A stretch of DNA of 64,000 nt from Diacronema lutheri (lineage: Eukaryota > Haptophyta > Pavlovophyceae > Pavlovales > Pavlovaceae): positions 1-64,000 of the forward strand of contig JAGTXO010000012.1 in the NCBI GenBank assembly GCA_019448385.1, read 5' to 3'. The position numbers and the translations under genes were made by a program. The notes under the pieces are model-generated. The model had not been told where the DNA came from. It saw only the letters and a program-made list of their open reading frames with translations, and made no database searches. Below, one piece after another: positions 1 to 21,247 of the stretch (position 1 is the first letter of the stretch; the number at the start of each line of letters is the position of its first letter).

Positions 1-408
1 TTATAGATGGTCAAGCCAAATCCGATCAGGGGCACGATCGAGCGCCCCGAGTGCAGCGCGGGCCATTCGGAAGGACGTCCTTGTGAGGGAGCTCTTCGCG
101 TTTGGCGAGCGGGGGAGCACGACGCGCAGCGTTGCTGCGGCGGCGTGCGGGCGGCGAGCAGCGGTCGGGCTGCTCGCGACGAGGCCGGAGCAGACGGCGC
201 CGTGGCCGCCGGCGCAGGTGACGCGCGCCGACGAGCCGTAGCGAGCGTCCGTGATCCGCACGGCGGTTGGAGCGGGCCGGCTGGTGCGGCGCGCTCGGCC
301 ACGGGTGGCGGCGTGCACGGGCGTGCCGAATGCGGTACGCGTCGCCAGCCGCGCGCGACCTGGGCAGAGCCCGCAAAGCGTCGACCGCTGCGCGGGCTCG
401 GCCGTGCG
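1..408. other. Flank downstream of the Fanzor-bearing gene; candidate element end
   Basis: This 408-bp stretch follows the stop codon of the giant minus-strand gene. A minus-strand reading frame runs through 1-318 and stops at bases 1-3; its composition is protein-like near the end, but I cannot assign it. In known Fanzor and TnpB elements the guide RNA is encoded at the 3' edge of the nuclease gene and overlaps the element terminus, so this is where a guide RNA and an element end would be expected. I see no clear terminal inverted repeat here, and the window may start inside the element. Confidence 0.3.
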
Positions 409-3400
409 TCAACGCCGGCCGCGCTTCGGCCCGCGCGCGCTGCCGCCGCCGGCACTGGCGCTGGCAGCTCCGCGGGCGGGGGTGCGGGCGTGAGCGCCGC
501 CGCCGCCACCGCCGCCGCGCCCGCCGCCGTCGTCGCCACCGCCGTCGCCGCCGCCGCCTCCCCCGCCGTCATCGTCGTCGTCGCCGCCGCCGCCTCCGTC
601 GCCGTCGCCGTCGCCGTCGCCCTCGCCGCCGCCGCCGTCGCCGCTGGCGTCGTCGTCGTCGTCGTCGTCGCCCTCGTCGTCGCCCTCGTCGCCGCCGTCG
701 CCCTCGTCGTCGCAGTCGTCGCCCTCGCCGTGCACCATGCGCTCCTCACGCTCCCACACCTCGCCGCGCGCCCACCAGGCGAGCACGAGGGCAAAGCGCT
801 CAGGCGTCGACGTGGTGTCGCGCCCGGCCGCGCGCGCCGCAATGTCGTGCACGTCGTAGAAGATGTTGCGCGCGGCGTTGTAGTCGCGGTGCACGGGCTT
901 CTTGCCGCCGTTGCACGCCGGGCAGATGACGAGCGCGTGCACCGTGCGCGTGCCGCCCTTTGCCACGGGCAGGCGCGGGTTCTGCGCGAGCTCCGCGCCG
1001 CAGCGCTGCAGCCTGCCGCCCTTGGCGAGCCGCGGCATCGAGCAGTGCATCGACGTGTACGGCTCGGGTACGAAGACGGCCGCGACGCCGCGCCGCCGCA
1101 GCTCGCGCAGCAGCCCCACCTGGAAGGCGGGCGGCGCGCCCTTGGGCTGCGCGCCCTTGTGGTCGTGCAGCCACTTGCCCACGCACACGAGCAGCCGGTC
1201 GCGCGTCACGCCGTCGACGCAGTGCGCCGCGATGAGCGCCTCGGCGACGCGCGCCGCGTTGGACCGCCCGCCGCTGTCGCGCCGCCAGCGCTCCTTGCGG
1301 CGCGCCGGCGCGTCGTACACGTGCTCGGCGGCGCGCTCGCGCACCCGCGCGCTCTCGCGGTGGAAGGCGATGTATTTGCCCGCGTCGAGCACCTTGGCGC
1401 TGTGCGCCTCGCCAAGCCGCGCCTCGTCCGCCTCCACGCTGAACTCCTCGCCGCGCCCGTCGGTGCGCACGCGCCGCCGCGCCGCGTTGGTCTTGGCCGT
1501 CTCGCGCGCAAAGCCCGCGGCGCGCGCGCGCGCGCGCTGCGTGAACTGCCGCCAGACGGCCGCCCGCCCGACGTGCGCAGAGTAGGTGGTGATGTTGCCC
1601 ATGTTCGGGTCGGCCGCGACGACGACCGCCTCCTCGATGTCGATCGCCCGCCGCAGCTCGGAGCCGAGCGCGACGGCGATGCGCCCGTCCGGCCGGCGCC
1701 AGCGGTGCAGGACGCTCGAGCTGCCGGCCGGCGCCTGCGCCTTCGGCACGAGGACGGTCGCGACGGCGTGCACGGCGACGCCATCCGTCACCACCGACGT
1801 GACGGGCTGCCGGCCCGGGAGCGGCACGCGCGGCAGCGGCGCGAGGCCCACCCACGAGCGCCGCGCGTGCCACGGCAGATCGGCCGGCGGCCGCTCGCGC
1901 CCGGCGTAGTCGAAGACGCGGTTGGAGATGTCGAAGCGCGTCGCGAAGACCGCGTACCTGACGCGCACGTCGGACATTGGCGGGACAAACGAGCCGCCTT
2001 GAGCGGTCCACTTGATCGGCTCGCCATCGTGGTCGCGCAGGTCCAGCGCCTTGAGCCGCGCGCGCAGCTCCTTGCGCTCGTCGTCCGGGAGCGTCTCCCA
2101 GATGGCGCTCGCGGTGAGGCGCACGTTGCGCGGCACCTGCGCGCAGCGCGCGGCGCGCGAGCGCGCGGGCGCGTGACCAACCTGGCCGCGGGGCGGCGCG
2201 CACGGCGGCGGCGCGCGCGCTTGGGCGCTCGGCGGCGGCAGCGGCAGCCGCGCCTCGCGCGCACATTGTGCGTGCGCAGCGGCGCCACGTTATACCGCGG
2301 CGGCCGGTCGGTGAGCTGCGTGTACAGGCGCGCGAGCCGGCAGAGCAGCGCCTGCCCCTTGGCCACGTGCTGCAGGTTGCGGATCTGCACGAGGAAGTAG
2401 CGCGTCGTGTGCCGGTCGTAGTTCCACCTTTTCGTGGGCGCGCACTCGTAGTCGATCTTGTGGAGGACCATGTCGGGCAGGTGGCGGTCGAGCGCGGCGG
2501 GGCAGCCGACGCGCGCGCCCTCCACGTCGCCGCGCAGCAGCCGCTCGCACAGCTCGCGCACGCGCGCGTTTCGCTGCATCTCGGGCAGCGCGACGAGCGC
2601 CTCGTCGCGCTCGACTGCCGCGCGGACGACGTCGCGGAGCAGCCCGTTCACGACGCGCGATGGATGCATCAGGCACGCGGTGGACACCTGCGTCGCCTCC
2701 GCCTCGAGGATCTCCGTGAGGCCCACCGCGCAGACGGGCTGGACGCCCTCGGCCATCTCGCCGACGGCGCGCGCCGTCGCCGCCTTGGTCTGCGCGGCGG
2801 CTTGCTCGGCGGGCTTGCCTCGCGGCGCTGCACCGTACGTGCTCTCGTCCTTGTGCCAGCCGATGGCCGAGAAGATCGCACGGACGGATCCCTTGTCCAT
2901 CGTGGTCGACGTGTGCACGCTGGTCGACGGGCCGCCCGACGCCGCGCCGACGGCCTGCGCGCTCGCCACCGCAGCCTCGTCGCGCACCACCTTGTTGATG
3001 ACGCGGTACGCCTGTGTCGTGAGCCTGTGCACGGCCGCCGCGATGCGCCGCAGCTCCTTCCGCGCACCGGGCTGCGCCGTCACCGCCTGCGGCCCCGCGT
3101 TGAGCGTCGAGCGCTTGACCACAAAGCCCGGGAGCACGCTGCCGCGCGTGCGCGCCGTCGCGCCGCCGGCGGCGCGCGCGCTCGGCGCAGCGGGCTCGTC
3201 CACGCGCGCGCGCTCGACGCCGCGCGCGCGGGGAACGCTCGGCGCGCGCGCGCCCGCGGCGTCGCGCGCGCTCGCGGCGGCACCCGCCGCGGCGCGCTTG
3301 CCCGCGGCGCCCGACTCGCCGTGCGCGCGAAGCGGCGCCGACGCCAATGCCGACGCCGCGCCCGCGCCGCCGCTGCCGCTGCCCGATACGCCCGCGCGCC

Positions 3401-6400
3401 GCTTCTGCTCGTCGCGCGTCTTGCGGAACTGGGCGACGAGGTCGCTGCTCACGTTGGCCTCAGGCTCCCACGTGTCGGCGCTCTCGTCGTAGCCCCGCCA
3501 CCTGATCCGGAACTGGAACGTCACCTTCTTGCCCGCCTTGCGGCGCTCGTCGACGACCGCCTCGACCTCGTACGTGCGCGCCTCCTCGTCGACGCTCGCG
3601 CCCGCCGCGCTCGCGCCCGTGTCCGGCCACCCAGCGACCGTGCCGCCCAGCCTCTCGGCGGCCGCGCGCAGCTGCCGCTCGCGCTGGGCGGCCGCGGCGC
3701 CTCGCGCGACCAGCGCGGGCAGCATGCCCGCGCCGCCCGCGAGGCCGTGCGCGCCGACGCTGGCGGTCATCAGCGCGTCGAGGCACGCGAACGTTGCGAG
3801 CGCACGCGCGCCATCGTCGCCGCCGCGCGGCTGCGAGCGCACGACGGGCGATGGCCGCGGCTCCCCCTCGGCCGCGAGCAGCGGCCAGATCGCACTGGCC
3901 AGCGCGACGGCATGCGCGCCGACCGCGACGGCCACGTCCGCGTCGAGCGGCGCAAAGTCGTAGCGCACGAGCGCGGCCGGGCGCGAGTCGTCCGTCGGCC
4001 GGTCGGCGACGAGCAGCCCGACCGGGCGCGGCGGCTCGCCGGACGGCGCGGCGACGGGCACGCAGAGGAGCACGACGAGCAGGCGCGGCGTGCCGCCGAG
4101 CAGCGCGCGCGCGGCATCCGCCCCGTCGGCTCCGCCGCGCGCGGCCGCGGCGAGCAGCTCGGCCGCGCGCGTCGGGCCCAGCGCCGTGCGCGCGTCCTTG
4201 CGCGCGCGTGCGCGGGCCGTGTACGCGGCGCAGGCGTCGTCGAGCACCGCCGCGCTGGGCGCGGTGCCAGTCGTCGCCCACGCGCGCAGCGCGTCGCGCA
4301 CCCGCGTGACGATCGCCTGGTCGACCGCCGCCTCGCCGGCAGCGTGCGCCGGCGCGCACGCCGGCGGTGCGGCGGCAGGCGCGAGCGCGGGCGCGCCGTC
4401 GGCGCCGTCAACGCCGACGGCGCCGTCGGCGCGCCGCCACGCGAGCTTCGCCTCGATCTGCTGCCGGACGGCGTGGCAGTGCCGGTCGATGCCGCGCGCG
4501 TCGTCGAGCGCGGCCAGCGCGTCCTCAGCGGCGGGACGGCCGCTCGCGTCCGCGACGGCCTGCAGGCAGAGCAGCGCGGCCGCACGCGCGTTGCACGCGC
4601 TCTGCGGCTCGGGCGCGAGCGCGAGCTCGAGCTCGAGCGGCGACGCGCCTCGCGCCGCGGCGATCGCGTCCATCAGCACGTCCAACCGCTGCACCAGCGC
4701 CCTGTGCGCGTCGCGCGGCGCGCCCGTCGACGGCGCGCGCGAGCGCGTCGCCAGGAGCCCGAGCGCGCGCGCCGGCGCGCCCGCCGGCGTGTGCAGCACG
4801 AGCAGCGCCGCGCCCGCCAAGCTCGCGTTGCGCGTGACGAGCGCGAAGATGCGCGTCGCCTCGTGCGCGCCCACCGACGCCCAGATCGCAGCGCGATCGG
4901 CGTCCGTCTGCGCGTCGCACAGGTCGCGCACGTCGTCCGGCGCGAGCAGCGCGCCGCCGCCGGCGGAGCGCGCGACGATCGCCCGCGCCTCCGCCACGAA
5001 GACGGCCTGCGGCAGGTCGGCGTGGCGCGCGTCGACGATGGCGCGCGTCGCGTGCACGCCGAGCTCCACGCCGCGGTAGAAGGCGCGCGCGTTGGCCGCG
5101 CGCGCGTGCGCCGGCCGTCCGTCCGCGTTGCGCCTCGCGCGCGCCTGCTTGCTCGTGCGCGCGAGGCCGTCGCGTGGCGGTGGCGGCAGCGTGGCGAGGA
5201 AGCGCGCGGCGGGCGGCGGCGCGCGCACGCCGCGCTGCCGCCGTGCGATGGCCGCGAGCCGCCGGCCCGCCGCGCTGCCGCCCGCGCCGACGTGCTGCCG
5301 GCGGCCGAGCGCCGCCGGTGGCGGCGGCGGCGGCGGCGCGGCGGCGGGCGGCGGCGCGACGGCGGGCGGCGGCGCGGCGGCGGGCGGCGGCGCGGCGGTG
5401 GGCGGCGGCGCGGCGGCGGGCGGCGGCGCGGCGGCGGGCGGCAGCGGCGGCGGCGCGGCGGCGACGGCAGCACCAGTCGGCTTGTCCGCCCACGCACCCG
5501 AGACTCTGTCCCAGACCTTGCCCCATGGCGCGCGCCCACGCGGCCGCGCGAACTGCCCCGGCTCGAGCGCCTGGCCGCGCTTGGCGGCGGCGGCGGCGGC
5601 AGGGGGCGGGCGGCCGGCGCGCCAGTCGAAGACAGGTGCAACCGTGGCGGCAGGCGCCGAGTGCCGCGCGTCGGTCACAGAGCGCGTGGTGCGCGCGGCG
5701 ACCGTGGCACGCCTGGCGGGCGGGCGGTGAGCAGCGCCCGCCGGCGCGCCGGCGGGCGCGGCCGCCTCGAGCCCGGCGGAGGCGCCGCGCTTGCGCTTGC
5801 GCGTGCCGCCGCGCGTGCGCCTGCGCGCGCGCCCGCCGCGCGCCCGTTCGGCCTGCGCGTCGCCAGCCGCGTCGCCGGCCGCGTCGCCGCGCCGCACGTA
5901 GACGACCGCGAACGCCTCCTCGCCGGTCCCGTCGACGCCGCCGCGCGCGCGGCGCAGGACCGACCGCCACTGCAGCCGCCGCGCGCGGCCGGGCTCGCAC
6001 GCAAACCAGCGCCCACCGCGCCTGACGACGGCCACAAAGTCGTCGTCGCGCCGCCCGCGCCGGCGCGTGCGCAGCAGCACGCACTGCACGTCGAGCCAGC
6101 CCTCGTGCCAGTCGGCCGTGCTGGGGGCGACGCGAATCGACTGCGGGAGCTCGACGCCAAAGCCGGCGAGGCGCACGATGTGCGCGACGATGACGCTCGA
6201 AATGGCGGGGGCGCTCGACGGGTCGCCCGCTGCAGCGAGCACCGCCCCGCCCCAGTGCTCACGCGTGACGCAATCCGCGTCCTCGACGTGCACGTGCGCC
6301 ACGCTCGCGCCGAGCTGGTGCAGCAACGCGCAGATGTCGGCGTCGACCGTCCTCTCCTCCTCGGCCGCCTCGGCCGTGCCGCGGGCGGCGGCGTCGCCTG

Positions 6401-9400
6401 TCGGCTGCCCGAGGTACGCGATCGCCCGCTCGACGGCCGCGCGCTCCGCACGCGCTGCGCTGTCGATCGCCGCATTGCCGACGGGCGCGCGCAGCGCCGC
6501 GATCGCGTCTTGCAACGCCGTCGCGTCGCCCGTCGCCGCCGCCGCCGTCACCGCCGCCGCGCTCGCGGTGCCGTGCGCGACGGCGTGCAGCGCGGCGGCG
6601 CGCGCGGCGGGGATGCGCCCGTCCAGCGCGAGCACGAGCGGCGGCCCGGCCGGCGTCTGCTGCCGCCGGTGCCGCCGGCTCGCAGCCGGGTGGTCGGCGC
6701 GCGCGCGCTCGAGCCGCGCGCGCCGCTCGACGACGCGCGCCCAGAAGGCCTGCACCCTCGGCTGCGCGAATGCAAGCCAGCCGGCGCCGCGCGTCACGAC
6801 GTGCACGACGATCCGGTCCTCGTGCCTGAGGTACTGCACGTAGAGCGCTTTGCTCACGCCGAGGACGTGCATGCCGAGCTGCAGCTGATCGCGGTGCGGC
6901 TGCGGCGGCCCGTCCTCGTGCGCCGTGGCGCCCGCCTTGGTGAGCGTCTTCACCTCGACGAGGACCTGCTCGTTGTTTTCGGGGAGGATGGCGAGCCCGT
7001 CCGGCGAGAAGGCGAACGGCGCGCTCTTGTCGTGCGGGTCCGCACGCACCATCGGCAGGTTGCACACGACGGTGATGCCGTACGCGGCCGCCAGCTTGCG
7101 CAGCGCGACGGCCTCGCCGAGGATGCCCGCGGTCGTCGCCTTGGTCCGCACCTCGCGCCGCCGCCGGTGCACGTACTCGTCGGTGAGCGTCTCGTGCGCG
7201 ACGCCGGCGTTGTCGTTCACGACGTCGCCAACCTTGCTGCCCGTGACCTCCTCCCATCGCTCGTCGTGCCAGCGCGGGCTGCGCTGCGCGGGCGCGCCCG
7301 CGCCGACGGCGTCGAGCACGCGGCGCAGCGCTGTGCCGTCGGGCGCAGCAGGCACGCGCGCGCGGTCCTGGGCCTCGCGAGCGTCGAGGACGCGGCCCGT
7401 AGTGGAATCTTGGGGTAGGTCGAGCTTGCTCGCCTCGCCGTAGCGGCTCTCCAGCTGGCGCGGTGCGTCGGCAGGGCCGCCGTCCGTGCGCGCACCCGAC
7501 GCGCCCGCCAGTGCACGCGGCGCAGCGTCCGAGGCGCCCGCCGCGCCCGCGCCGCCGCCAATCGCGCCAGCGCACGCGCGCGCCGCGACCTGCGGACGGC
7601 CAGCCGCAGGGACCTCGTCCGCTCGGCCGGCCGCTGCGTCGGCCGTCCGCTTGGCCACCTCGCGCACGTCTCCGAGCGCGAGCGTGGCTGGCGCCGTCCA
7701 GCTCCCGTTGCGTTTGTCCCAACATTTGAGCAGCCCGCCAAGGAAGGGCGTGCCCGTCGGGCGGTCCTCGGGCACCTCCGCCAGGATCGCGTCGACGCGC
7801 AGCGCGGCCGCCACATCGCAGAACGCGCGCGCGGCGCGCGCCATCCGCTCGGCGCGCGCGCCGCCGTCGTCCGCCGCGCGGCGGATGGCGTGGCTCACGT
7901 GCGCGACGCGGAGCGAGACGACGGCGTGCGCCGGCGCGTCGGCGCCCGTGCCGAGCGTGTGCCGCCGGATGGCCAGCTGCCCATCGCCCATGCGCGGCGG
8001 CAGCGACGCGCACGCCGCGACGGTCGTCGTGCCGGCCGCGCTGTCGCACAGCCAGCTCGCCTCGCCGCCGCCCGCAAACTCAAAGGTCGCGAAGCCCTCG
8101 CGGCCGAAAAGCGCGACGAAGTGGTCGAGCACCGCCTTGTTGATCGCGCGCGCCGCCGGCCGCGTCGATGCGCCGCGGGCAGCGCCACCCGCCGCGCCGC
8201 GCGCATCGCTGCACGTCGCAGGGCAGGTGCAGCCGGACGCGCGCACGCCGTCCGACCGCGTCCGCGGCAGCTCGAGCTCGCGCACCTTGGGGCAGAACCA
8301 GAGCGGGTTGGACGCCTCGAGGCACAGCACGACGAGCCGCCCGTCCGTGCCGGCCAGCGCGCGCGCGTCGCGCAGCAGCTCGACGGCGAGCTCGGACGTC
8401 GCCGCGTGCACCGCCGGCTCGCCCGTCGCGCGGTCGGGCGGGAAGAGGCCACCGCCGACGAGCGGGCTGGGGCAGCGGCCGAGCATCACGAGCAGCGGCG
8501 GCGGCGGCGTCTGCGGCGCCTGCTGCCCGACCGCAGCCGCCGTCAGCCCGGCCAGGTCGGAGCTCGTGCGGAGGGCCTTGAGCGCGACGCGCGAGCCGGT
8601 GCCCGCCTGCTCGGAAAACGTGGCGAGCATGGCGCACGTGCTCGCCCTCGCGCCGCACTGCCAGCTGACGCGCGCGAGGAGGCCTTCCAGCGTGTCGTTT
8701 TCGCGCGGCCGCGTGACCGCGTCGAGCGCCGCCGGGCCGAGCTGGAGGCTGCCGGGCGTGACGCACAGCACCGCCTCGTGGTAGGCGCGCAGCAGCTCCC
8801 TCGGCAGCTGCTCGGCGGGCGTCGCCGCCTGCCCGCCCACCCACCGTGCACCGTGGCCGCCGTCGCCCGCGCCCGCGAGCCGGACCGCCGGCCCGCCCGT
8901 GATCGCCGAGGTCGGTGGCGTGCCGAGCGCGTCGACGAGCGCGCGCACGGGCGCGACACGCCTGCGCGCAGCGTCCGCGCCGACGGCGAGCGCGGCGATC
9001 TGAGCGCCCTCCCATGCGCGCTCCCTCGCGTCGTCCCGCGCGGCCGCCGGCGCGGCGCCCGGCCGCGCGCCGGGCGGCACCGCGCACGCCGCCGCGACGA
9101 CCTCCGCGCGCGCGCCGGCGGCGTCGGGCGCGTGCAGCTGCGCGAGCGCGCCAAAGAGCGCGGCGGCCGAGCGGTAGCGGCCGTGCGCCGCGACGAGCGC
9201 GTAGAGCACGCGCAGCGCGGCCACGCCCGCCTGGTCGGGCGCGTCGCCAGCGATTTGCTCGACCTCCCACGTGCGCGTGGGCGGCGGGCTGCCGTCGGCC
9301 GGGTCCGGACGCAGCGCCCACGCGCGCTCGACGATCGCGTTGAACACGCCGCGCGCGGCGCCCTCGTCAAACTCGGCGGCGCCCGCCGCGTGCGCGCACC

Positions 9401-10985
9401 ACCCGTGCACGCGCGACGTGGGCGCGTCCACGGCGCGCTGCACGACGAGCACCGCCGGCCGGTCGACGCAGCCGAGGCTCACCGCCGCGTGCTTGCCCTC
9501 GAGCAGCGCCGCCGCCGCAGCCTCGACCAAGGCGTCATCAGGCGCGTCGCCGACGACGACGGCACAGCCGTCGCCGTACTCGGCCTGCATCGCGGCGACG
9601 CACGACGCGACAAAGTCGCCGCCCGCGGCCGCCGCGTGTCGCGCCGCCAGCATCCGGCGCGCGATGGCAAGCCAGACGTACTCGGCCGGCGCGCGCGCGG
9701 CGCGCGCGCGAGGCGCGCCGGCCGCGCCGCGTGCGCCCGCGCGTGCGCCTCCAGCGGCCGCGACGGCCGAGGCGGCTGGAGCGGCGGTGAGCGTGCGCCG
9801 CGCGCGCTTCGCCGGCCGCGTGATGGGCGATGCACCCGCCATCGCACCGCCCGCAGCAGCCGGTGCGGCCGCCACAGCGCCCGCCGCAACGCCACTCGTC
9901 ACGACGCCCGTGGCGGGCGGCGCGGCGGCGGACGTGGCCGCCTCGACGGGCGTCGCGCAACTACCGCCAGCGGTCGCGGACGCGCCCGGCGACGCGTCGG
10001 CGAGGAGGTGGCGCAGCACGCCGCGCGCGAGCGCGACTGGCACGGCGAGCGTCAGCGCGCGCAGGCGGTCGGAAGGCGAGGCGTCGCGCTCGGCGTCGGC
10101 GGACGTGGCGGCAGCAGGCGGGGCGGCGGGCGGCACGGCGGCGGGCTGGGCGGCCGCCGGCGCAACCTCGTCGGCCTTGGCCAGCCAGACGAGCCCGGCG
10201 ACTGCGAGCACGACGCTGTACGCGCCGACATCGTCACCCGCAACGCGCGCCAGCCGGGCGTGGGCGTCGGCCTCGGACACGGCGACGTGGAAGAGCACGT
10301 CGTCGCGGGCAGCTTGCTCGGCAAACTGACGCAGCTGCTTGGCCATCGTCACGCCGGCGACGCACGCCTCGCCCGCCTCTGCCTCGACCTGCTCGTCCTG
10401 GCCGATGGCGGACGCGCCGGCCTCGGCGCCAGCGTCGAGTGTCCGGCGGCGCTCGAGGGCGAAGCCACGCACACAGACGCGCTGGAGGCCGCCGAGCGCG
10501 CCCGCCTTCTCGTGCAGCGCGCACGACAGCTCGACCACCGAGTCCACGCGCCTCGCGGCGGCGCCCCCCCGCTCGCCGCGCGTGGCCGCGCGCACGACGA
10601 ACACCGTGAATTGCGCGCGCTTCGCCGCGCGCGCCGACGCGCACGCGTGCTTCAGGAGCCGGCAAAGCGCGGGCCTTTGCGCCGCTGCGCCCCGCGTGCA
10701 CAGCAGCAGTTGGCCGCGCTCGTCGCCCAGCTCCTGCTCGACGGCGGCCTCGAGCGCGTCGTCCGTCAAATCGCCGTGCTCCGTCGAGGCGAGCGCGCGC
10801 GCAGCCGCGAGCGCCAGCTCGCCTGCGCCCGCGCGCCGCCGGCGGCGCGCACCGGCGGGCGCGTGCGGCGCCGACGCGTGTGACGACGCCGCCGCGTCCG
10901 CGCGCGCACACGCGGCGCGCAACGCCTCACGCGCCGAGGCGGCCGCGCGCGCCCTGGGCGCGAGCTTCAAGAACGTGCGCGCGGC

Positions 10986-11058
<73 letters not shown>

Positions 11059-14000
11059 TCGCCCGCGTCGCCGGCCGGCGGCGGCGGTGGCGGCGGTGGC
11101 GGCGCGGCCACGGCGGCGGCAGCAGCGGCGGCGGCGGCGGTGGCGGCGGCGGCGGCGCCCAGCGCGGGCGGCGGCGGCGTGGCGGCGGCGGTGGCGGCGG
11201 CGGTGACGCCAGCGGCGGCCTTGGCGCCGCGCGTCTGCGGCGGCGTTTCGGCGCGATCGGGGCTGCCCCCGCCACGCACCGCGCTCGTGACCGCGCAGAC
11301 GCCGCCCGGCGCACGATCGCTGGCCGCGCCGGTCAGCGCGACGCGGAGGCGCTCGCCGACAGCGTACATGTCCGCCACGCTGAACGTGCGCGGCGCGGAC
11401 GAGCAGCCCGCCGCGGCGAGCGCGTCGTTGAGCGCGCCCACTATCGCGAGGCCGCACGTCGCGCCACGCTGCGCCGCCTCGTTGAGCAGCAGCGCGCGGC
11501 GCACGCGCGAAATGTCGAGACCCGCCGCGTGCAGCGTGGCAGTTATCGCCTTGGCGAGCATGAGCGCCTGCCTGCAGGGCGACGCGAGCGTGTCGACGAG
11601 CACCGCGTCGTAGCGATGCTCGCCCGCGCGCGCGACGCGCACAAGGCGCAACGCGGTGAAATGGCCGGAGGCGAGCTGCGCGCCGTCGTCACCGCCCGCG
11701 CCGCCGCGCTCGTCCGACGGGCTCCACACGCCGATGACAGCCTGCGTTGTCGCCTCGCTGCGCAGGCGGTGCAGCAGCGCGGCGCGCTCGGCGTCGTCCT
11801 GAAACACCGCGGGTTGCGCGGCGAGCGGCACGTGGCAGACATGCCCGCCGCCGGCCTGCCCGTGCACGCGCAGCACGACCTCGCAGCACGCGTCGACGGT
11901 TGAGGCGAGCATGTCGCCGCTGGCGATGCGCTCCACCTCTGCCTGCGGGAGGCCGGCGCTCGCGGCGGCGGCGGCCAGCCGGCGCGCAGCCGCGTCGCCC
12001 GCCCACGCAAGCAGCGCCGAGTTGGCGGGTTGGAGGGGAAGCTCAAGGGCGGCTGGTTCGGTGGCGGTAGCCTCGTTGGCAACGGGCACGTTGGCGGTGC
12101 GCGCGTTGGCGGCGGGCGCGGCGGCGATGGCTGGTGGGGCGGAAGACGCGCCCGCGGCGGCGGGCGCGGACGCGGCAGCGGCAGCGGCTAGTGGGGCGGG
12201 GAAAACGCCGTCGGTGGCAGGCGCGGAGGCGAATGCAGGAGCAACTAGTGGGGCGGGAAAATCGGCGGCAGGCGCGAAGGCGGATGCAGCAGCGGCTAGT
12301 GCGGCGGGGAAAACACCGTCGGCGGCAGGCGCGAAGGCGGATGCAGGAGCGCCCAGCGGGGCGCAGAAAACACCGTCGGCGGCAGGCGCGAAGGCGACAG
12401 CAGCAGCGGCCAGTGGAGCGGAGGCGCAGGGCCACGCGCGCGCCAGCCGTGCAAGCCCAAGCCGCGCGCGAGCGACGCACGCGCCGATGGCCGAGGCGGC
12501 GGCGCAGGCCACGACGTGGCCTGGCACCGGTGTGGCCAGCCGCTCGCGGGTGTGCACGTCGAGCCGCGCCCCACGCCAAGAGCGGCGGCGCGCTGAACGG
12601 AGGCGCGCGACCCCGATCGATCCGCCCGCGCACGCGCGCGCCGGCTCAGTGTGGCCAACGCGCGCCGCTATGCAAGGCGCGCGCGCGATAACGGCGGCTG
12701 TCGGCCGTGGCGTGCGCGTGGCGGCGCCGCGGCGACGGGCGCGGCACACGAGCCGCTCGGGCGCGCCGCCGCCGCGCGGCACGATGTCGAGCAGCACGGT
12801 CACGCCGCGCGCGCGCGCGACCGCCGTGCACGCGAGCCGCACGGGCAGCGGCGGCCCGTCCGGGCGCGCGAGCGCCGCCACCTCGGCGTCGGTGAGGCTG
12901 TGCAGCTCGCGGCGCGCGCGCGCGAACGCGGCGATGTCCGCGCGCAGCTCCGCGTCCGTGCCGAGCGCGGCACGCGCGTGCACGGGGAGCGACGCGCGCA
13001 GCGCGTGGAGCACGCCGCCGCGCGCGCCGCGCGGCGCCGGCGCGCGCTCGCGCTCAGCGCGCGCGGCGCGCGTGAGCTCGCGCACCGCGCGCGCGAGATT
13101 GCGCCGCGCGGCCGCGACGGGAGGGCTAGGTGCGCGCGCGCGCCGGTTGTAGCGCGGCCGCGCCGAGTCGAGGGGCGGCGGACGCGGTGCGTACGCCGCG
13201 GCGCGGCCCGCGCGCCAAAAGGCCGGCGGCGGGCGCAGCTCCGTCGCGTCGACCGCGGCCGCGAGCGCGCCGAGCGCGGCGTCGCTGTCGCCCGCCGCGT
13301 CGGCCGCGTCGACGAGCACGAAGAGCGCGCCGAGCGCGCGCGACGCGGCCGCCTGCGCGGCGGTGGGGCGGGCGCAGGCAGCGACGCATGCGGCCGCCAT
13401 GCCGCGCGCCGCGGCGAACGCCGGTGACGTGACGGCCGCGCCGATGGCAACGGCGGCGGCGGCGACGGTGGAGGCGGCAGCGCCGGCGATGGAGGTGGCA
13501 GCGGCGGCGGCGCTTGCCATCGCGCGGCGCGCGAGACGCGAGGCGCCACCGACCGCCGCCGCCGCAGCGCGCGCTGCGCGCGCGCCGGTGGCGCGCATCG
13601 TCGCCGCGCCAGGCGCCGCCGCGCCGACGCCGCCGGCGCCCGCGCCGTCGCCGCTCTCGGCCGTGCAGGGCTCCGATGGCGAACCCGGCGTGCGCTGGCG
13701 CGTGATGCGCGCGCCGAGGCGCGCGCTCCGCGCCGCGCGGCCGGCGACGTCGAGGAAGCGCCGTGCGCGCGCCGCGCGCAGGCCACGCGCGCGCGGCGGC
13801 GCACCGACAGGCGCCGAGCGCCGCGGCGCGCACGCCGGCGCGTCGCTGTCGGGTTGCGCAGCGCGCGCGCGGGAACTCGGCGCGGCGTGTGCGGGCGGCG
13901 GGCGCGCGCCCGCGCGGCGCAGAGGCGCGAGGCGCCGGCCGCAGACGAGGCGTGTGCGCAACCAGGACGGCGAGGGCCGCAGGGCGCCGTCGACGTCGCG

Positions 14001-17000
14001 CATCGGCGGGCCGCGAGCCCGCCGCGCAGCCGTGCGGCGCGCGCGAGGCGCTCGGCGGCGCGCGCGCCGCACGGCGCGCGCGGCGGCGCGCACGCCAGCG
14101 ACGGCTGCGGCCACGCCGCGCGCCAACACGGCCGCGGCGTGCGCCATCGCACCGAGCACGGCGCGTGGCGCGCCGAGCAAGCGCAGCAAGCGCGACGCCG
14201 TCGCGCGCGCCGGCGCACCGTGTGCAGGGGCCTCGCCAGCGCCAGCACCGACGCCGCCATCGCCGCAGCCGCAGGTGGCGTCGCCGCCGCCGCAGGCGTC
14301 GCGACGGACGCCGCCGCCGCCGAAACAACCGCCGCACACGTCGCCGCCGACGTTGCCACCCCAGCCGCCGTTGCGTGCGCAGGTGGCTGCGGCGCGTGCG
14401 TGCGGGAGGCGTGCCGTGCGGCGCGCATCACACGGGCTGCGCGACGCGAGCGACGCCGCCGGGGTCCCCGCTGCGCCAGGCGCGCCGTGCGCGCCAGCCT
14501 CGCCGGCCTCGCCGGCGCGCGGTCGCGCGCTCGCCTCGACGTGGCCGCCTCCGCCGCCATCGCCGCCGTCGAACCGGGCGGCGGAGGGCTGCCGCTCGAA
14601 CCGCTCGTCGGCGTCGGCCGCCACCGCCGCCTCGCGCTCCGCCGCCGCGGCGGCCGCACGGCGCGCGTGGCGGAGCGCGCGGCCGCCGTCCGCTGCGCGG
14701 CGTGGCGGCGCGGGCGCGGGCTTCGGCGCGCGCGGCCCCTCGGCGCGCTCGCGGAGCACGGCGAGCGGCGTGCCCGTGGCGACGCTCGTGCAGACGCGCC
14801 GCAAGGCGGCGCTTACGCACGCGTGGACGACGCGCGCCGTCCGCTTGTCGGCGGCGCGCGCGGCGCGGCGCGCGGCCTTGGCGGCGGCCTTTTTGGCGCG
14901 CCTCTGCTCCGCCTGCTCCGACAGCGCGCGCGCCTGGCGCTCGGCTGCGAGCGCGTCCTCGGGCGAAACGGTCGGCCTCGGCGGCCGCGCGCGCGCGCTG
15001 CGACGCTGCGCGCTGCGGCGGTCGGACGGCGGCTGCCGCGGCGGCGAGGACGGCGAGCGCGAGCTCGGCGTGGGCGACCAATCGCCGCTGACGGTTGCGA
15101 GCGGCGCAAACGGGTTGTCGTCCCCGCGACCCGCGGCGTGCGACAGTGCACGCGGCGTCGGGCGCCGGCCGACCGCTGGCGGGCCCCACTCGGACGGCGG
15201 CTCCGAGGGCGAGCGCGCCGTCGGCGCCGCGCGTTGCGCGGCCGGCGGCGCCTCCCGGTCCAGCGCCGCCTGCTCTCTCGCCGCGGCCTGCTCGTCACCC
15301 TCCGGCACGCCACGCGGCGCGAGCACCGCGGTGGCGCAGCGCGTCGCGTTGAGCAACGCCGCCTCCATCTGCCGCACGCTGGCCTTGGCGCACGCCACAC
15401 CCTCTCTCGCCCGGCGCAGCGCCTCGTGCGCGCGGCGCACATCCGCGTCGGCATCTTCGCGCATGCCAAAGTGCGCCTGTTGCAGCCGCAGGTCCGCAGG
15501 GCGCCCCTGCGCGCGAGGGGCACGGGCGCGGCGGCGCGCAGGTGACGGAGCTGGCGCGCCGTTCTGCGCTGCGCGCACGCCAATCGACGGGCGCGCGCGC
15601 GGCGGGGCGCGCGCGCGCGCGCGCGCGCGCGCTGCCTACCCAGCCGCCGGCCGGCTCGCGCGAGCGCGCCAGCTGCTCCGCCGCCTCGGCGTCGAGCACG
15701 CGCTGCTGCGCCTCCTCCTCGCCCAGTGCAGCGAGGTGCAGCCGGCGGGCTGCCTTGCGGCAGTTGCCCTCCGCCTTGCCCACGGCCTTGCGCGCCGCGT
15801 CGACGGGGTCGTCGTTGGCTCTGGCGCGCCTGCGCTTGCCCTTGTCGGCGGGCGGCGGCTTGGCGCGCTGCAGCGTGCCGAGCGCGTCGTCGGCTCCGCG
15901 CGCGGCCGCCCGCGGGCGGCGGGCCCCAAAAAGCGCACCGGTCGCCGTGCGCGCCGCGCAAGCAACGACCAGCGCTGACATGCCGGCGAAGACCGCACCG
16001 CCCAGCGCCACGGTTGCCACGATGCGCAGCGTCCCGTGCGCAAGCTGCGCTGCCTCCGCCGCTTTGGCGGCCTCGCGCGCGCGCGCATCGGCGGCTCTCA
16101 TCTCGTGCAGCAGCCCGGCCGCGCCGCTCGCGCCGTCGCGGCCGCGCGCGAGCTCGCACAGCACCGCCGCCGCGCGCCGCGTGGGCTCGCGCGCGAGCAG
16201 CTGCGCGCCGCCGTCGGGGCGCAGCTTCTCAACGAACTCGACAAACGTCGCGTCGCGCCAGAGGGACATGCGGAAGGCCCTGTGCACCGCCCCCTCCTGC
16301 TCGCGCATCCGCCGTGCCGCCCGCCTGCCGTCGCGCGCGTGCGCGTGCGCGGCCGCGTCGAATCCCGCGACGCCGCGCTGCGCGTCGCGCGCGGCCGACG
16401 ACGGCGCCGCCGCGCTGCCCGCCAAGGGCGCCGCAGCGGCGACGCGCGCGTGCGGAGCGACGGGATCGCCGGCGGCCGGCGGCTCGGCGCGCTGCGGCGT
16501 GCCGTTTGCTCCGCGCGCGGCCGTCCCGGGGGAGATGGCCGCGATGGCGCCGCCAGCCGCGCCGCGCGCCAGCCACGCGCATAGGCTGCCGACGAGCTCG
16601 CCGAGACCCCCGACGGTCGCCGCGGCGGCGAGTGCGCCGGGCTTGCCGGCCGACAGCGGCTCGCGAGCGTCGTCGTCGCAGCCGCCGGCACCCGTCTTGG
16701 CGAGTGCGTCGCGCTCGCCCTCGACGCCCGCCACGACCGCCGCCCCTCCGTCGTCCGCCGCGCCGGCCGCGCGCGCGGCCGGGCGCAGAGGAGGCGTGCC
16801 GGTGCAGCCGTCGCCGCTCGTCTTCGCCGTTTCCTCCACTTTGGTCACTTCGTCGCCACCTGCGCCATCTCCGACGCCGGGGCCCTTGGTCACGCTTGCC
16901 GCCATGCGCGCCGTGCCCGCCGGCCAGCCCGCCGACTGCTCGAGCGCGGCGGCGAGCGGCGCGACGCGCGTCGACTCGGGCGCGCTCTCGTCATCGGGCT

Positions 17001-19314
17001 CGAGCGCGTTGTGCAGGCGCGCGAGCGCGCGCTCGACGGCCGCGGCGCCACTGCCGGGGGCGCGGCTCGCCGCGCGCACCGCGCGCCGCCAGGCCGGCGC
17101 GAACATGAGCGCCGGCTCGAGCGCCGCGAGCGCGCGCGCCTCGCGCGCGTCGCTCGCGCCGAGGCGCGGCGGCACGCGCGCGGCTCCGCGCGGCGCGGTG
17201 CCTCGGAAGCGTGGGCTCAGCGTGTAGGCGAGGTGCTGCGGCACGCCGCGCGCCTCCGCGCGCGCGCGTCCGTCCTCGACCTCGCGCCGCGCCTTCGCGA
17301 TCGCCGGCGTGGCGCGCGCGAGCCAGTCGGGGTCGGCGGGCAGGTGGATCACGACGAGAATCGGCGCCCAGTCCAGCCGCGGGTTCTTGTGACGGTCGGG
17401 CACGACCCACACGAGCAGCACCGTGCCCTCCGCGCCGCACGCCGCCTCGTAGATCCTGGGCTGCGAGCGCCAATCGGGCCTGACGCGCAGCGCCCGCGCG
17501 TGGTCGATGGCGGCGGCGCGGTCGCCATTGAAGTGAACCGTCGTCACCTCGCCGATGACGGACCGGCCGGACCGCCAGCAGAACACCGCGTCCGCCGACC
17601 CGCCGGCGATGGCCGCGAGCGATTCGGGCGCGGCGAGCCGCGGCAAGCCCTCGAAGGCGGCAAAGTCCTCGTGCGCATTGTACACGCCGCCCCAGCCGTC
17701 GTGCGCGTACGCGCGCGCGGCCGCTCGTACCGCGCGCGGCTGGTTCTCCACGCCCGACGTCATGTGCCATGTCGTCCCCGCGAAGCCGGGCTCGCCCAGC
17801 TCGGCCCGCACGACGGTACCGTACCCCGCGCCCTGCGTCGGGGCGGCGAGGTGGTGCATGCCCGCGCCGGTCACGCCCTCCGTGCGCTGCCGCGTGACGA
17901 TCGTGCCCGTCGCGTGCGCGAAAAGCGTGTCGACCACGGCGGGCGCGCGCCCGCTGTTCGCCCGTAGCCGCGCCCTGCCCGCTTTTAGCTGCTCGGGGTC
18001 CTTGGCGTCGTACACGCGCGCGTCCGCGTCGCCCTCATCAGGCGCAGTGTAGACGCAGCGGCGTTCGAGCGGCGCCGAGCCACCGCCGTCCGCCGCCGCC
18101 GGCGAGGTTGGCGCCGCGCCCGCCGCCACCGCGCTCGTCGCCGCCGTGCCCGTCGCCACCGCCGCAGCCGCCGCGCCCGCGGGGTCGTCGTCCCCGTCCT
18201 CCGCGCCCTCCCCGTCGTCAGCGGTGGTGGCGTCGCCATCGTCCCCGTCGCCCTCGCCCCCGCCGAGGCTGCTGAATGGTCGGGGCCCCCACGCCGAGGC
18301 GGCGCGCCGCTGCGGCGCACGCGGCGGTGGCGCTCGCGACGGCGGCCTTGGCGCCGCCGCGCCGCGCGGCCTGGCCGCCGTCGACAGCGCGCGGCCTGCA
18401 GCGCCCGTGAGCGCGTCGAGCGCGGCCGTGCGTGCGATGCGGTCGTCGGGCGCGCGCAGCGCCGCCTCGACGGCCTGCAGCAGCCCGTCGGGCGCGGATC
18501 CGCCGACACTGGCATCGCACGCCTCGGCGAGCCGCGCGGCCTCGGCGAGCCGCGCGGCCTCGCGGGTGAACGGGCCGAAGCGCCTGGCGCGGTCGCCGAG
18601 CAGAGCGCCGATGGCGGCGCGGAGCGTGCGCGCGCGGGTCTCCTCGTACGCGGCCGTCGTGAGGCGCGCGAGGCGCGCGTCCAAAGCCTTCTTGATGTCG
18701 ACAAGGACACTCGCGCGGCGGCCGTAGAGCGTCGATGCGCTCGCCACGACCTCGGCCGCGACTGTTGCCGCGGCGAAGCAACACGCGGCCCCACTCTGCG
18801 GGGGCGCCTTGAAGGCATCGATGGGCGGCGCTGTTCTGCCGATGCGCTGCGCAAGCTTCTTGATGAGCACGCCGGCCGCCGTGGCGTACGCCGATTCGCC
18901 GTTGCCCAAGGTGCGCGAATCGGCGAGCAGGGCGAGCGCGGCGCCGGGCGGCGCGCCGCGCTGCGCGGGCGGCGCGAGGAGCAGGTACGCCGCCGTCCAG
19001 TGCACGAGGCCGCTGGACGCGCGGAGGCAGAGCGGTAGCACGACCACGAGCACCTGCCCAAACCGGTCCGCATCCGCGCATGCTTTGCGCAGGTTGCGCA
19101 GCGCCACCTTGAGCGCATGCTGCGAGCACCCCGTGTCGCCCACCCTAACCCTGCTCGTGCCGAAATCCGCGTAACGCAGCAGGGCGATGAGGCAAGTGGA
19201 TGGGACCACGTGGGGGTGGGTATCTCCCGGCGACAGAATGGTGCTGAGGGCCAGCGAGAAACTGTCCGAGCCGCCCCGCCCGCCGGGCAAAGCGTCCTTC
19301 ACGGAGTCCTCCAT
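409..19314 (-). CDS. Giant multidomain mobile-element protein: C48 proteases, YqaJ exonuclease, chromodomain, Fanzor nuclease
   Basis: The model is three exons, 19314-15640, 15506-2265 and 2136-409, giving about 6,214 residues. Two GT-AG introns of 133 and 128 bp each restore the frame. Visible modules in order: a C48/Ulp1-like protease (residues about 10-210; H105, D132, Q173, C179); a long Ala/Arg-rich linker; a second C48 protease (about 2400-2620; H2507, D2530, Q2571, C2576); a YqaJ-like exonuclease (about 3968-4155); PPPAAA repeats; degenerate C48-like segments; a chromodomain (about 5203-5257); and a Fanzor nuclease at the C terminus, ending in a D/G-rich tail and a basic GPKRGRR. Openness alone is weak evidence at this GC content, because antisense shadows of over 1,700 codons exist; the support is that the recognised domains fall in one spliced frame. 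Alternatively the first exon (C48 #1) is a separate gene. The start ATG at 19314 directly follows TCTGCAG, so an upstream exon is possible. Confidence 0.6.
480..735 (-). repeat. Trinucleotide-rich (GAC/GGC)n tract coding an acidic D/G tail
   Basis: On the plus strand the tract reads as runs of GTC and GCC triplets. On the minus strand it encodes Asp and Gly runs between the Fanzor RuvC-III motif and the basic C-terminal tail. Such a compositionally biased tail is likely disordered; its length may be polymorphic. Confidence 0.8.
2137..2264 (-). other. Intron (128 bp) inside the Fanzor module
   Basis: The donor is AAT|GTGCGCGCG (first intron base at 2264) and the acceptor is GCGCGCAG|GTG (last intron base at 2137). 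Removal joins ...LRTHN to VPRNVRL in phase 0 and links the Fanzor helical N-terminal part to the RuvC core. Donor and acceptor match introns in the host genes of this window, such as atpC and lepB. Confidence 0.7.
3412..3577 (-). other. Chromodomain within the giant protein
   Basis: Residues about 5203-5257 of the giant product read TYEVEAVVDERRKAGKKVTF and continue into FRIRWRGYDESADTWEPE. This is a canonical chromodomain: a Y-VE-I start, the RWRGY core and the TWEPE segment with its aromatic Trp. Chromodomains bind methylated histone tails and in chromoviral integrases and some transposases steer insertion into heterochromatin. Here it lies about 450 residues N-terminal to the Fanzor RuvC core, which suggests a chromatin-tethered nuclease. 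That role is inference. Confidence 0.85.
3770..5080 (-). other. Degenerate C48-like repeat segments in the giant protein
   Basis: Two stretches keep the outline of a C48 fold without the full active site. At about 4900-4530 a hydrophobic strand and ALGLLATRS are followed by PEPQSACNARAAALL. At about 4100-3770 LLVVLLCVPV and VGLLVADR are followed by RSQPRGGDDGARALATFACL. They resemble the pattern of a strand, a D/A-R strand, then Gln before a Cys helix seen in the two intact C48 domains, but the His and sometimes the Cys are missing. A third such stretch lies near 9.2 kb (DQAGVAALRVLYAL). The assignment is by pattern only. Confidence 0.35.
5330..5465 (-). repeat. 18-bp tandem repeat coding PPPAAA units
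   Basis: Plus-strand GGCGGGCGGCGGCGCGGC-like units repeat about seven times and encode alternating Pro and Ala triplets in the giant protein, just after the YqaJ-side region. This is a probable flexible linker. Confidence 0.75.
6720..7290 (-). other. YqaJ-like (PD-(D/E)XK) exonuclease domain in the giant protein
   Basis: Residues about 3968-4155 of the giant product begin SPRWHDERWEEVTGSKVGD and contain GILGEAVALR, then FAFSPDGLAI, then VLVEVKTLTK, then HRDQLQLGMHVLGV. This is the E, G-x-PDG, E-x-K, Q-x-Q order of the YqaJ/lambda-exonuclease type of PD-(D/E)XK nuclease found in phages, nucleocytoplasmic large DNA viruses and eukaryotic mobile elements. These enzymes resect double-stranded DNA ends for single-strand annealing recombination. 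D (SPDG), E and K (EVK) are all present, so catalysis looks possible. Confidence 0.8.
10975..11215 (-). repeat. (CGG/GCG)n triplet repeat coding poly-Ala and poly-Pro
   Basis: About 80 bp of uninterrupted GCG triplets (from about 10986) are followed by interrupted GGC/GTG triplets. On the minus strand they encode long Ala runs and a run of Pro in the linker after the second C48 domain. Confidence 0.85.
11340..11980 (-). other. Second C48/Ulp1-like cysteine protease domain in the giant protein
   Basis: The active-site order is H in SGHFTALRL (bases 11661-11663), D in AVLVDTLASP (11592-11594), Q in NEAAQRGATCGL (11469-11471) and C in the same motif (11454-11456). Spacing and context match the Ulp1/SENP/adenain clan: His on a strand, Asp-Thr/Ser on the next strand, Gln of the oxyanion hole five residues before the Cys helix. 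Family members cut SUMO or viral polyproteins. In a 6,000-residue product, self-processing or deSUMOylation are both plausible; neither can be chosen from sequence. Confidence 0.75.
12190..12425 (-). repeat. 57-bp coding minisatellite, about four units
   Basis: Units begin near GTGGGGCGGGGAAAACGCCG and recur about every 57 bp (one unit is 51 bp), encoding 19-residue repeats around APAADGVF in the giant protein. All unit lengths are multiples of three, so the frame is kept. This is the signature of coding repeat expansion in an expressed frame. Confidence 0.8.
15507..15639 (-). other. Intron (133 bp) joining first and second exons of the giant gene
   Basis: The donor is GGCTGG|GTAGGCAGC (first intron base at 15639) and the acceptor is CGCGCGCAG|GGGCGCCC (last intron base at 15507), phase 0. 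It joins ...REPAGGW to GRPADLRLQQAHF. The intron holds a run of about 14 alternating GC dinucleotides. If it is not spliced, the two long frames are separate genes. Confidence 0.5.
18700..19290 (-). other. First C48/Ulp1-like cysteine protease domain in the giant protein
   Basis: At residues 101-190 SSGLVHWTAAYLLLA gives H105 followed by Trp, as in Ulp1. LALLADSRTLGN gives D132-Ser. APPQSGAACCFAAATV gives Q173 and C179 with the six-residue Q-to-C spacing of Ulp1. The stretch from residue 38 (PSTCLIALLRYADFG) fits the usual N-terminal part of the fold. All four catalytic positions are present. Downstream in the same exon (about 17.3-18.0 kb) is another globular stretch with a possible degenerate PD-(D/E)XK core (DAVFCWRSGRSVIGEVTTVH). 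Confidence 0.7.
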
Positions 19315-19831
19315 CTGCAGACTGTGGGCACGTCAGTGTCCGGATGGCGGCCCGGATGATACTTGGGAGAATTTACATGATGCCCTGGAGAATGCCCCGC
19401 TCTCCCACAACCAGGACCCGCCAGCGCGCCGAGCCTACTCGTTTGCCCGCGCCGCCTCTCTTTGCGCGCCCGAGCGCGGCCTCCGAGCGCGGCCAACGTC
19501 TTCCGGGGGCGTGCATCGTGGCTGCTCGGAGGGGCTGCGACGCGGCGAAAGCTCGCTGCGCGGCCGCAACGTGAGCGCGCGCGCGCGGCCGCGCGCCGGC
19601 CTGCGCTTCTCTGCACGGCCGCGCGCCGGCCTGCGCAGCCTCGTCGCGCAGCGTGAGCGCGAGCGCGCGCGAGGTGAGCTCGGCGGATGGGTGCGCGGCG
19701 GCGTTGGCGGCGGGTGCGGCGGCAGGCTGGGCGGCGGGTTTGGACGGAGAGTGTCGGGGAAACGGGGCGCATCCTGGCTGGGAGTTGGACGGCGCCCACC
19801 ACGCGCTGGCGGATCCTGGTTGCCACCACCA

Positions 19832-19852
19832 CCCCCCCCCCCCCCCCCCCCC
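19832..19852. repeat. Poly-C tract (21 C)
   Basis: A pure run of 21 cytosines on the plus strand, preceded by CCACCACCA. Its length is unreliable in assemblies. Confidence 0.9.
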
Positions 19853-21220
19853 GGAGACGAGGACCAGGGGCATGGCCGACTCGCTGCGCCGCACAGCGCG
19901 CGGCGCGCGGCATGCTGCGCGACCTCAAGCACATCCAGCCGCGCTCCGCCCACGCAACGCGCGCAATGCCGCGTTGCACTGCAGGTGTGCACGTGCGGCT
20001 CTCACGCGCACTGTGTTGCACGAACGGCATCACGCCACCGAGCTGCGTCCGGACCACGCGCCGCGCGCAGGCGACCACACAGGGGCGCGCCGCGCCGCGC
20101 GTGCGCGCCCTCGCAACCGTTGCAGCACGCTCTGCCTTGCACTGCGCCGAGCCGCCGCGCGCTGTGCGCGTGCATGCAGGGCGCACGCGTGCGACGAAGC
20201 GCGCGCGCGGCGAGGCGCGCGGGCGGCTCGCTGCGCGGGCGGCAACGCGCCCAGCTGCGCCCAGGCCAGGCGCGCGCCCGCGAGTGCCACCGGGACGCAC
20301 TGCCCCCGCCGGGGTCGCCGCGCGCTCTGTGTGTGCGCTCGCGCGCTGCGAGCGCGGCGGAACGTTCGTGCATGGCGCGAAGAGCGCGGCACCCGAAGAC
20401 GGCTGCCCCGAGCCCGCGCCGGGTGGCAGCGAGCGGCGGCACCTCCTCGGCGAGCCCGCCCCGCGCCTTCCCCTCCACGTGGCGTTTTGAGGCAGACGGA
20501 CACGCGCCCACACTGCGACTGGGCACGCTGCTCGAGGCAGACACGCACCCAACGCGCGCGCACCACGCGCCCGCGTCGGCGGGCCGGTGTGAACGAGCGA
20601 GAGCTCGGTGTCGCCAACGGGGGCACGGGCGCGACTTCGGTCCGCCTCTCGACGGACGCAGGCGACGCTGCCGGGAACTTCCCCGACGCCTGCACATCCA
20701 GGGCTTCGAGGTACAGAGCTGGGCAACAGTGCCGCTCGTCACCGATGAGGCGGCCAAGCTCGCTATCCTTGCTGCCCTCGGCTCCACCAAACAGCCGGGC
20801 GACCCAACGGTTCGTGATCGCCTGGCCGCCAGGTGCGAACCGCGCCCGTGCAAGCGCTTCACCCGCATTCTCCGCCCCGCTGCGGACGTCCGCCTGCCGG
20901 CCGCGAACACGGCCGGTGCGCGTTGCCGCCTGGCCCAACACGAAAACCCGCCCGCCCCCGAGGCCGCAGGTCCTACCTGCCCAAGCGCAGCCCAACGGCA
21001 CGCAGACAGCCCGCCTTGGCAACCGACTCGTGCGCGAGCGCTCCGCCCTCCACAAGAGCCTGCCCCACGCCACCGCCGACGCGGAGCCAGCGCAGCCGAC
21101 GCCCCTCCGCGACGCTCGCGCCGCAAGGCGCAAGGGCCCCGGCGAGACGGCGTCAACCAAGCCCGCCGCTGGCACAGCGCCGGCACCCGGAGCCCACCCC
21201 AAGCCCCCGCGCACGCCTCG

Positions 21221-21247
21221 CCCCCCCCCCCCCCCCCCCCCCCCCCC
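21221..21247. repeat. Poly-C tract (27 C)
   Basis: A pure run of 27 cytosines on the plus strand, followed by GATCGGCGG. Confidence 0.9.

Follow-up and report, generated by a model that had tools for sequence, protein, structure and literature searches.

The first 64 kb of contig JAGTXO010000012.1 of the haptophyte alga Diacronema lutheri (hereafter the window; the contig is designated C6) begin with a transposable element of 31 kb, situated at window positions 2–31,133 on the minus strand, whose 3′ two-thirds correspond to a giant gene. The product deduced for this gene has about 6,200 residues, contains a RecE-like exonuclease domain and carries at its C-terminal end a chromodomain and a region that, judging from its motifs, looks like an RNA-guided DNA-cutting enzyme (Fanzor). 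We favor, as moderately probable, the explanation that the Fanzor of this element recleaves the donor site that the element has emptied. A first-pass annotation of this DNA had proposed an element-encoded protein, which is borne out by the fixed ends of the 31-kb mobile element and by at least 144 genome matches to the piece coding for the exonuclease; it had missed the high-copy element itself, its ends and its genes for a PIF1 helicase and a ubiquitin-specific protease (USP).

Ends of the element

The coding strand of the element is the minus strand, so that its 5′ end is the right end, and its 3′ end the left end, in the window. The extent given above is defined by termini common to 29 of 30 right-end loci and to 29 of the 31 left-end copies whose flank could be read, and a copy on another contig (C71:151845–182852) aligned to window 31,052–2, in pieces, with 98.7–99.7 % identity. 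The left (3′) terminus is sharp at position 2, and the flanks beyond it are largely unrelated between copies. The junction reads G/TATAG in those 29 left-end copies, the two exceptions being GTGTAG (L018) and GTTAG (L062), and the contig of the window starts one base out from the 3′ end of the element, with a T. The 5′ terminus, TATATAG, lies at 31,127–31,133; the right end reads GCCGTATATAG followed by the flank in 29 of the 30 loci found by the search (L032 differs), TATATAG marks the 5′ junction in these 29 and also in L002, and two of the right-end loci (L048 and L052) have one flank in common. TATAG is found at both borders; its origin may be the target, the element or a crossover between the two. 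No further target duplication beyond the junction motif was seen by eye in 11 paired ends, and a comparison of the termini revealed no terminal inverted repeats.

The terminal regions also contain potential secondary structures. An 18-bp perfect palindrome, GTACGACCCGGGTCGTAC, is located near the 5′ end (30,995–31,012), an equally long arm being found in only 1 of 500 mononucleotide shuffles, and an imperfect subterminal hairpin could be read from the sequence near the 3′ end (29–48). The 5′-end unit of ca. 80 bp, from 31,053 on, is present twice in tandem in the window copy (30,968–31,133), and a tandem duplicate of this unit likewise occurs in L031, on C2. The stop codon of the Fanzor lies 407 noncoding bases before the 3′ terminus, and these bases (2–408, minus strand) are, from their position, a candidate guide-RNA scaffold. 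A search of Rfam yielded no match at gathering thresholds.

Contigs C1, C6 and C12 start, and C3 ends, within a few bases of the 3′ terminus of the element. The assembly was most likely interrupted there by the boundary of the repeat; telomere targeting was rejected as a cause, because such breaks account for the contig starts. From its coordinates, C89 seems to end near the opposite boundary. In the window, an ATP synthase gene (31,182–32,450; PF00231, E-value 6e-83) has its stop codon ca. 50 bp from the end of the element, and the five copies with flanks L047, L049, L053, L063 and L064 are situated within or next to a short repeat (ca. 140–150 bp) that often ends in GTAAGCGTCGTTA.

Copies in the genome

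D. lutheri harbours well over 100 near-identical copies of the element, the result of a recent spread. The genome searched comprises 43,492,796 bases in 103 contigs, and the copies scored were 144 of 239 candidates for the exonuclease piece, 131 of 201 for a piece of exon 1 and 95 of 419 for the Fanzor core. There are thus at least 144 matches to the exonuclease piece at 99–100 % identity, two of them with one TAA, at least 131 to the exon-1 piece at 99–100 % identity and at least 95 to the Fanzor core at 95–100 % identity, without stops in any of the 131 or of the 95. The frame containing the exonuclease piece is at least 4400 amino acids (aa) long in 85 of the 144 copies, and of 4490–4525 aa in 64. 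If all 144 copies were full length they would amount to ca. 4.5 Mb, or one tenth of the assembled genome, although this is only an upper bound for those copies because at least the ones on C11 and C69 are shorter or rearranged.

In the C11 copy (L073–L074), window 16,907–24,646 is replaced by ca. 2 kb of other DNA, after which the pattern of the window resumes at 24,647. This copy diverges at an internal ATG (16,905–16,903), the part upstream of it being absent, and shows an in-frame interruption at about 6.0 kb of the window; remnants resembling a Fanzor and MPAAASVT were noticed by eye in its ca. 2 kb of other DNA. A variant of ca. 21.5 kb on C69 (97494–118980; L081, L077, L080, L082, L076 and L022) keeps both ends. 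Substitutions between the window and the C71 copy are unevenly distributed, with 72 of 151 in the first 3 kb, at the Fanzor end, few in 13–28 kb and 17 in the 28–29 kb bin. This uneven divergence suggests exchange between subfamilies.

Reading frame of the giant gene

Three minus-strand open reading frames (ORFs), at 19,332–15,295 (1345 aa), 15,635–1788 (4615 aa) and 2289–409 (626 aa), can be joined by two plausible GT-AG introns, deduced from the sequence, into a single frame of 18,591 nt (6,196 codons plus the stop) that runs from an ATG at 19,314 to a TGA at 411–409 without internal stops. This agrees with the very long frame of ca. 18.6 kb that had been proposed for this strand. Exon 1 (15,640–19,314; 1225 codons) shows coding bias in frame −0 and contains no profile-identified domain. 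It would be followed by an intron of 163 bp (15,477–15,639, GTAGGC...CAG), one of 42 GT-AG pairs that fit this junction, whose length (1 modulo 3) goes with the change from frame −0 to frame −2. Exon 2 (2289–15,476; 4396 codons) lies within the 4615-aa frame, and the second putative intron (2137–2288; 152 bp, GTGGCG...CAG) would return the reading to frame −0 in exon 3 (409–2136), which contains the Fanzor core with its RuvC residues and an acidic, Gly/Asp-rich tail.

Long open frames are cheap in DNA with the G+C content of the element (ca. 76 %), and the 4615-aa frame was therefore tested against shuffled sequences: when the region was shuffled 100 times with its dinucleotides preserved, no ORF exceeded 1578 aa. 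A codon-bias scan, with a training set that contains pieces of the same frames, gave the best score to single minus frames (−0, −2 and −0) across nearly all of 19.3–0.45 kb; the exceptions are 10,801–11,250 and 12,151–12,600, both in exon 2, with a near-tie at 15,301–15,750 and weak scores at 13.5–14.4 kb. The scan detected little coding signal in 19.4–22.9 kb and 27.9–31 kb.

Variation among copies was examined by comparing the window with three sets of sequence: the C71 copy, along the element; the C11 copy, as far as 16.9 kb; and 20 copies in the region 2–3672 (21 loci, two of them being one copy). All 8 unique indels in exons were multiples of three, versus 1 of 12 outside them (Fisher p = 7e-5), those outside that are not multiples of three including one of 2 bases in the second putative intron. 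One exon event, aligned as gaps of −4 and −29, was scored as −33; if counted as two events, the exon figure becomes 7 of 9 (p = 0.002). Exon 3 accumulated 33 synonymous and 45 nonsynonymous changes, a synonymous fraction (33/78) above the ca. 28 % expected (p = 0.008); these counts, and those for exon 2 given below, are of non-stop changes, one change in each exon having been classed as a stop when considered by itself. Additionally, the exon-1 and exon-2 pieces gave equal open-frame lengths, of 5279–6136 aa, in four copies (C11:780438/792210, C21, C48 and C75:528460/517969), which we take as one frame in each of them. Judging from these comparisons, the coding frame is maintained across copies.

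It is possible, rather than probable, that the same element contains in these 18.6 kb two or more genes with separate starts, for instance one read from the ATG at 16,905–16,903 and a distinct gene for the chromodomain-Fanzor; the long frame would then result in part from the 76 % G+C and the strong codon bias. The C11 copy, in which the shared sequence begins at that ATG and is preceded by other DNA, would fit such an arrangement, as would the length of ORFs expected by chance at this G+C content, which reached the above 1578 aa after shuffling and 1766 aa in the opposite strand. Database searches with the exonuclease piece and exon 1 likewise yielded no relative able to show the same order; neither had a homologue at E ≤ 0.001 in the protein database, where Ala-rich words may crowd the candidate list. 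However, exon 2 is stop-free over 13.2 kb, with single-frame coding bias nearly throughout, and both the exon indels in multiples of three and the common frame length of exons 1 and 2 in four copies argue for a single gene.

Domains of the giant product and other genes

Ala makes up 25 % and Arg 11 % of the predicted product, and most of its 6,196 residues have no match in the libraries used. The Fanzor that had been placed at the end of the frame is supported by the zinc ribbon profile of Fanzor/TnpB (PF07282; E-value 2.2e-6, 28.2 bits, above the cut-off of 26.3) and by the motif published for these proteins, D-X(125,275)-[TS]-[TS]-X-X-C4 zinc finger-X(5,50)-RD (PMC3627910), which is represented in the 626-aa frame by D227, TS412 (with 184 residues between them), Cys 416, 430, 456 and 459, and RD468. 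The region bounded by the first acidic residue of RuvC and the far end of the zinc ribbon spans 862–1611 (minus strand). A homologue from a 2.3-kb public contig (P0016), of 45–49 % identity, retains the three acidic residues (D, E and D), termed catalytic from the published motif, and the zinc cysteines; it reached only 11.4 bits with PF07282, below the cut-off. A second full relative is a 95 % identical protein encoded on a 2.4-kb contig. TnpB-family NCBIfam models scored far below their cut-offs, a profile search of PDB returned a Cas12f1 chain alone (E-value 0.013) and no Fanzor chain, and PADLOC found only a weak match to the tail of Csx1 (E-value 0.006). An annotated SAM-domain protein of D. 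lutheri (KFE25_006464; P0017) is 74 % identical to 9 % of the Fanzor frame, perhaps as an insertion fragment in a host gene.

The chromodomain was equally confirmed; it is of the HP1/CDY type (3420–3572, minus strand; PF00385, E-value 3.9e-13), and its matches in PDB are to CDYL/HP1 chains (2dnt, E-value 4.9e-10). The exonuclease, described earlier as a YqaJ-like recombination enzyme, corresponds to a RecE/YqaJ-like nuclease domain of the lambda-exonuclease family (6720–7295, minus strand), identified with phrog_434 (RecE-like; E-value 6e-15). The scores with TIGR03033 (E-value 3.2e-5; 24.1 bits, cut-off 68) and with Pfam YqaJ (E-value 0.032) are below the cut-offs, a search of PDB gave no match, and the ExK motif is present as VEVK near residue 4062 of the protein.

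The annotation had also proposed two C48 proteases that would release parts of the product, and neither the proteases nor this role found any support in profile searches. The patterns in question, an H..D..Q..C-like arrangement of residues in exon 1 (ca. 18,775–19,011, minus strand) and a second at 11,442–11,672 (minus strand), were recognised by eye only and are unrelated to each other by phmmer. C48 gave no Pfam match at E ≤ 5 in pieces of the product and none in the 4615-aa frame; PF02902 has nine matches elsewhere in the genome, one at 9e-33, so the search works, and none at this locus. A second, degenerate exonuclease and C48 repeats, also seen by eye, were rejected for being no better than shuffled controls.

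Upstream of the giant gene, and on the same strand, the element carries two other genes. A helicase domain of the PIF1 family (25,590–26,683) is distributed over two frames, implying at least one intron or frameshift (PF05970, E-values 1.8e-24 and 3.7e-14; PF21530, E-value 6.2e-13), and a USP-like (UCH) segment is found at 23,221–23,487 (PF00443, E-value 4.2e-8). Near the 5′ end, on the plus strand (28,955–30,950), there are less biased frames that appear coiled-coil-like by eye, two of which were scanned and had no Pfam match; they are possibly a decayed or spliced gene.

The large size and the genes for an exonuclease and a helicase might also indicate an integrated virus, or a plasmid derived from one, instead of a transposon, since Fanzors occur in large DNA viruses (PMC3627910). 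We consider this very improbable: Pfam scans of long ORFs showed no capsid, DNA polymerase (including the protein-primed type) or packaging ATPase, and no relative was found in viral contigs for the pieces of the element tried.

Proposed recleavage of the emptied donor site

We return to the transposable element with a chromodomain-Fanzor as the preferred explanation. A putative recombinase, lying in the unmatched residues or provided in trans, would excise the element and insert it at a site resembling GTATAG, with no other duplication of the target. The guide RNA would be formed by the 3′ end of the element and the flanking DNA, with the flank beyond window position 2 as the guide, and would bring the Fanzor to the donor site left empty, with CTATA acting there as target-adjacent motif. 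On the coding strand, the element is delimited by ...CTATA on one side and ...CTATAC-flank on the other, and CTATA is nearly invariant at the junctions. Once emptied, a site would thus have the sequence CTATA(C)-flank, in which the motif is joined to a match to the guide. The exonuclease and the helicase might then promote repair from a sister copy, by which the element would be retained or copied, and the chromodomain could tether the complex to methylated chromatin.

Several observations weigh against this explanation. No empty insertion site was found, and the junction motif may therefore be partly borne by the element. Palindrome strength at the 3′ end is not above chance (105 of 500 shuffles), and the predicted RNA fold of this terminus is weak (z = −1.96, with 4 of 100 shuffles as good). 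The frame is shorter than 4400 aa in 59 of the 144 copies, and copies vary in make-up, the middle being absent or replaced in those on C11 and C69. The part of exon 2 at 2289–3640 accumulated 17 synonymous and 61 nonsynonymous changes (17/78), with no signal of purifying selection (p = 0.21), and structure models are poor, with a mean predicted local distance difference test score of 41.8 for the AlphaFold2 model of the Fanzor part, made from three sequences, and 44.3 for the other. Lastly, Pfam scans of the long ORFs of the element gave no transposase profile; the Helitron domain PF14214 has a single match in the genome, on C63 and outside this copy of the element; and none of the 16 genome matches to the tyrosine recombinase profile PF00589 falls in window 2–31,133.

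Other searches for the enzyme that moves the element gave similar results. There was no Pfam match to a HUH Y1 transposase in the long ORFs scanned, HUH patterns had no Y..K in frame within 350 residues, save for one in a 176-aa ORF, and the scan that showed the PIF1 helicase reported no Rep domain. A Helitron Rep, a tyrosine recombinase and a C48 protease were rejected as genes of the element by profile searches. It is possible that the mover is a divergent enzyme within the unmatched residues, or that help is provided in trans.

A more extreme form of the latter would be a non-autonomous passenger, moved in trans by a HUH (Helitron-like) enzyme or a tyrosine recombinase of another element, with the Fanzor and the exonuclease as cargo. 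This finds a precedent in the trans mobilisation that Bao and Jurka propose for the Fanzor-bearing families CRe-1 to CRe-3 of Chlamydomonas (PMC3627910), and is compatible with the lack of a recognised transposase in the element while one Helitron N-terminal domain and 16 matches to the phage-integrase family exist elsewhere in the genome. The palindrome near one end and the fixed 5′ flank also resemble those of single-stranded DNA transposons, and two of the PF00589 genes (C69:95472 and C17:194914), 94 % identical over 1 kb, are situated 23–27 kb upstream of Fanzor ends and on the same strand, the one on C69 being ca. 1.5 kb outside the 5′ end of the element (97494). Nevertheless, two recombinase genes near copies are about what a rough estimate predicts by chance (ca. 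1.7, assuming 16 matches and 150 copies with a length of 31 kb), and the copy number and the near-identity of copies with intact large genes suggest that these genes matter. We therefore regard a mere passenger as doubtful. At the other extreme, the element could be a self-sufficient RNA-guided copying transposon, in which one chromatin-tethered giant protein, uniting the Fanzor with the recombination exonuclease, would cut the empty site and accomplish the homology-directed copying of the 31 kb into it, possibly without a conventional transposase; this we hold to be unlikely.

Comparison with known elements

Cryptons and the giant transposons known as Starships have a tyrosine recombinase. 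The element resembles both in the short direct repeat (TATAG) at its ends and in that no terminal inverted repeats were found, and resembles Starships in its large size; it differs in that PF00589 has no match within it, although a very divergent enzyme is possible. Helitrons possess a helicase of the PIF1 type, and with Helitron and Helitron2 the element shares the Fanzor, a hairpin near an end and a PIF1 helicase. In contrast to them, it has no Rep/HUH domain, the sole genome match to PF14214 being that on C63. Some Helitron and Helitron2 elements carry Fanzor1, and have hairpins near their ends (PMC3627910).

Compared with the IS200/IS605 family, to which ISDra2 belongs, the element is eukaryotic, has putative introns and yielded no HUH Y1 transposase. 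It is also much larger, presumably some 15–20 times the size of ISDra2. ISDra2 inserts 3′ of TTGAT without duplication and has subterminal palindromes, the guide RNA of its right end runs into the flanking DNA, and its TnpB has been proposed to cut the emptied donor site, with repair restoring the element (PMC8612924). The likeness lies in a short, nearly fixed junction motif with no other target duplication seen, in a subterminal palindrome, and in a nuclease gene and a noncoding terminus at the 3′ end (PMC8612924). The motif of SpuFz1 is CATA (PMC10432273).

The Fanzor1 and Fanzor2 elements described so far (PMC3627910, PMC10432273) have in common with this one the TnpB-like C-terminal motif, the zinc ribbon and the presence in multi-copy eukaryotic elements; here, by contrast, the element has 31 kb and the Fanzor ends a frame of ca. 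6,200 codons with a chromodomain and a RecE-like exonuclease. Among the described host superfamilies of Fanzor elements we found none that fits, and the terms "Chromodomain", "YqaJ" and "Ulp1" are absent from the main text of PMC3627910. The open-licence literature searched, as far as its accessible text goes, contained no description of such an element, and the string "transpos" has no match in the main text of the D. lutheri genome paper (PMC8379373).

What Fanzors do in biological terms has been described as unknown (PMC10432273). In D. lutheri, whose genome has 43.5 Mb, a Fanzor is situated at the precise terminus of more than 100 recent copies of an element that is often intact. Since the predicted motif (CTATA) and the predicted guide of each copy, which would be its own flank, can both be read from the sequence, the model of donor-site recleavage is directly testable, and the element offers a natural setting for testing the role of a Fanzor.

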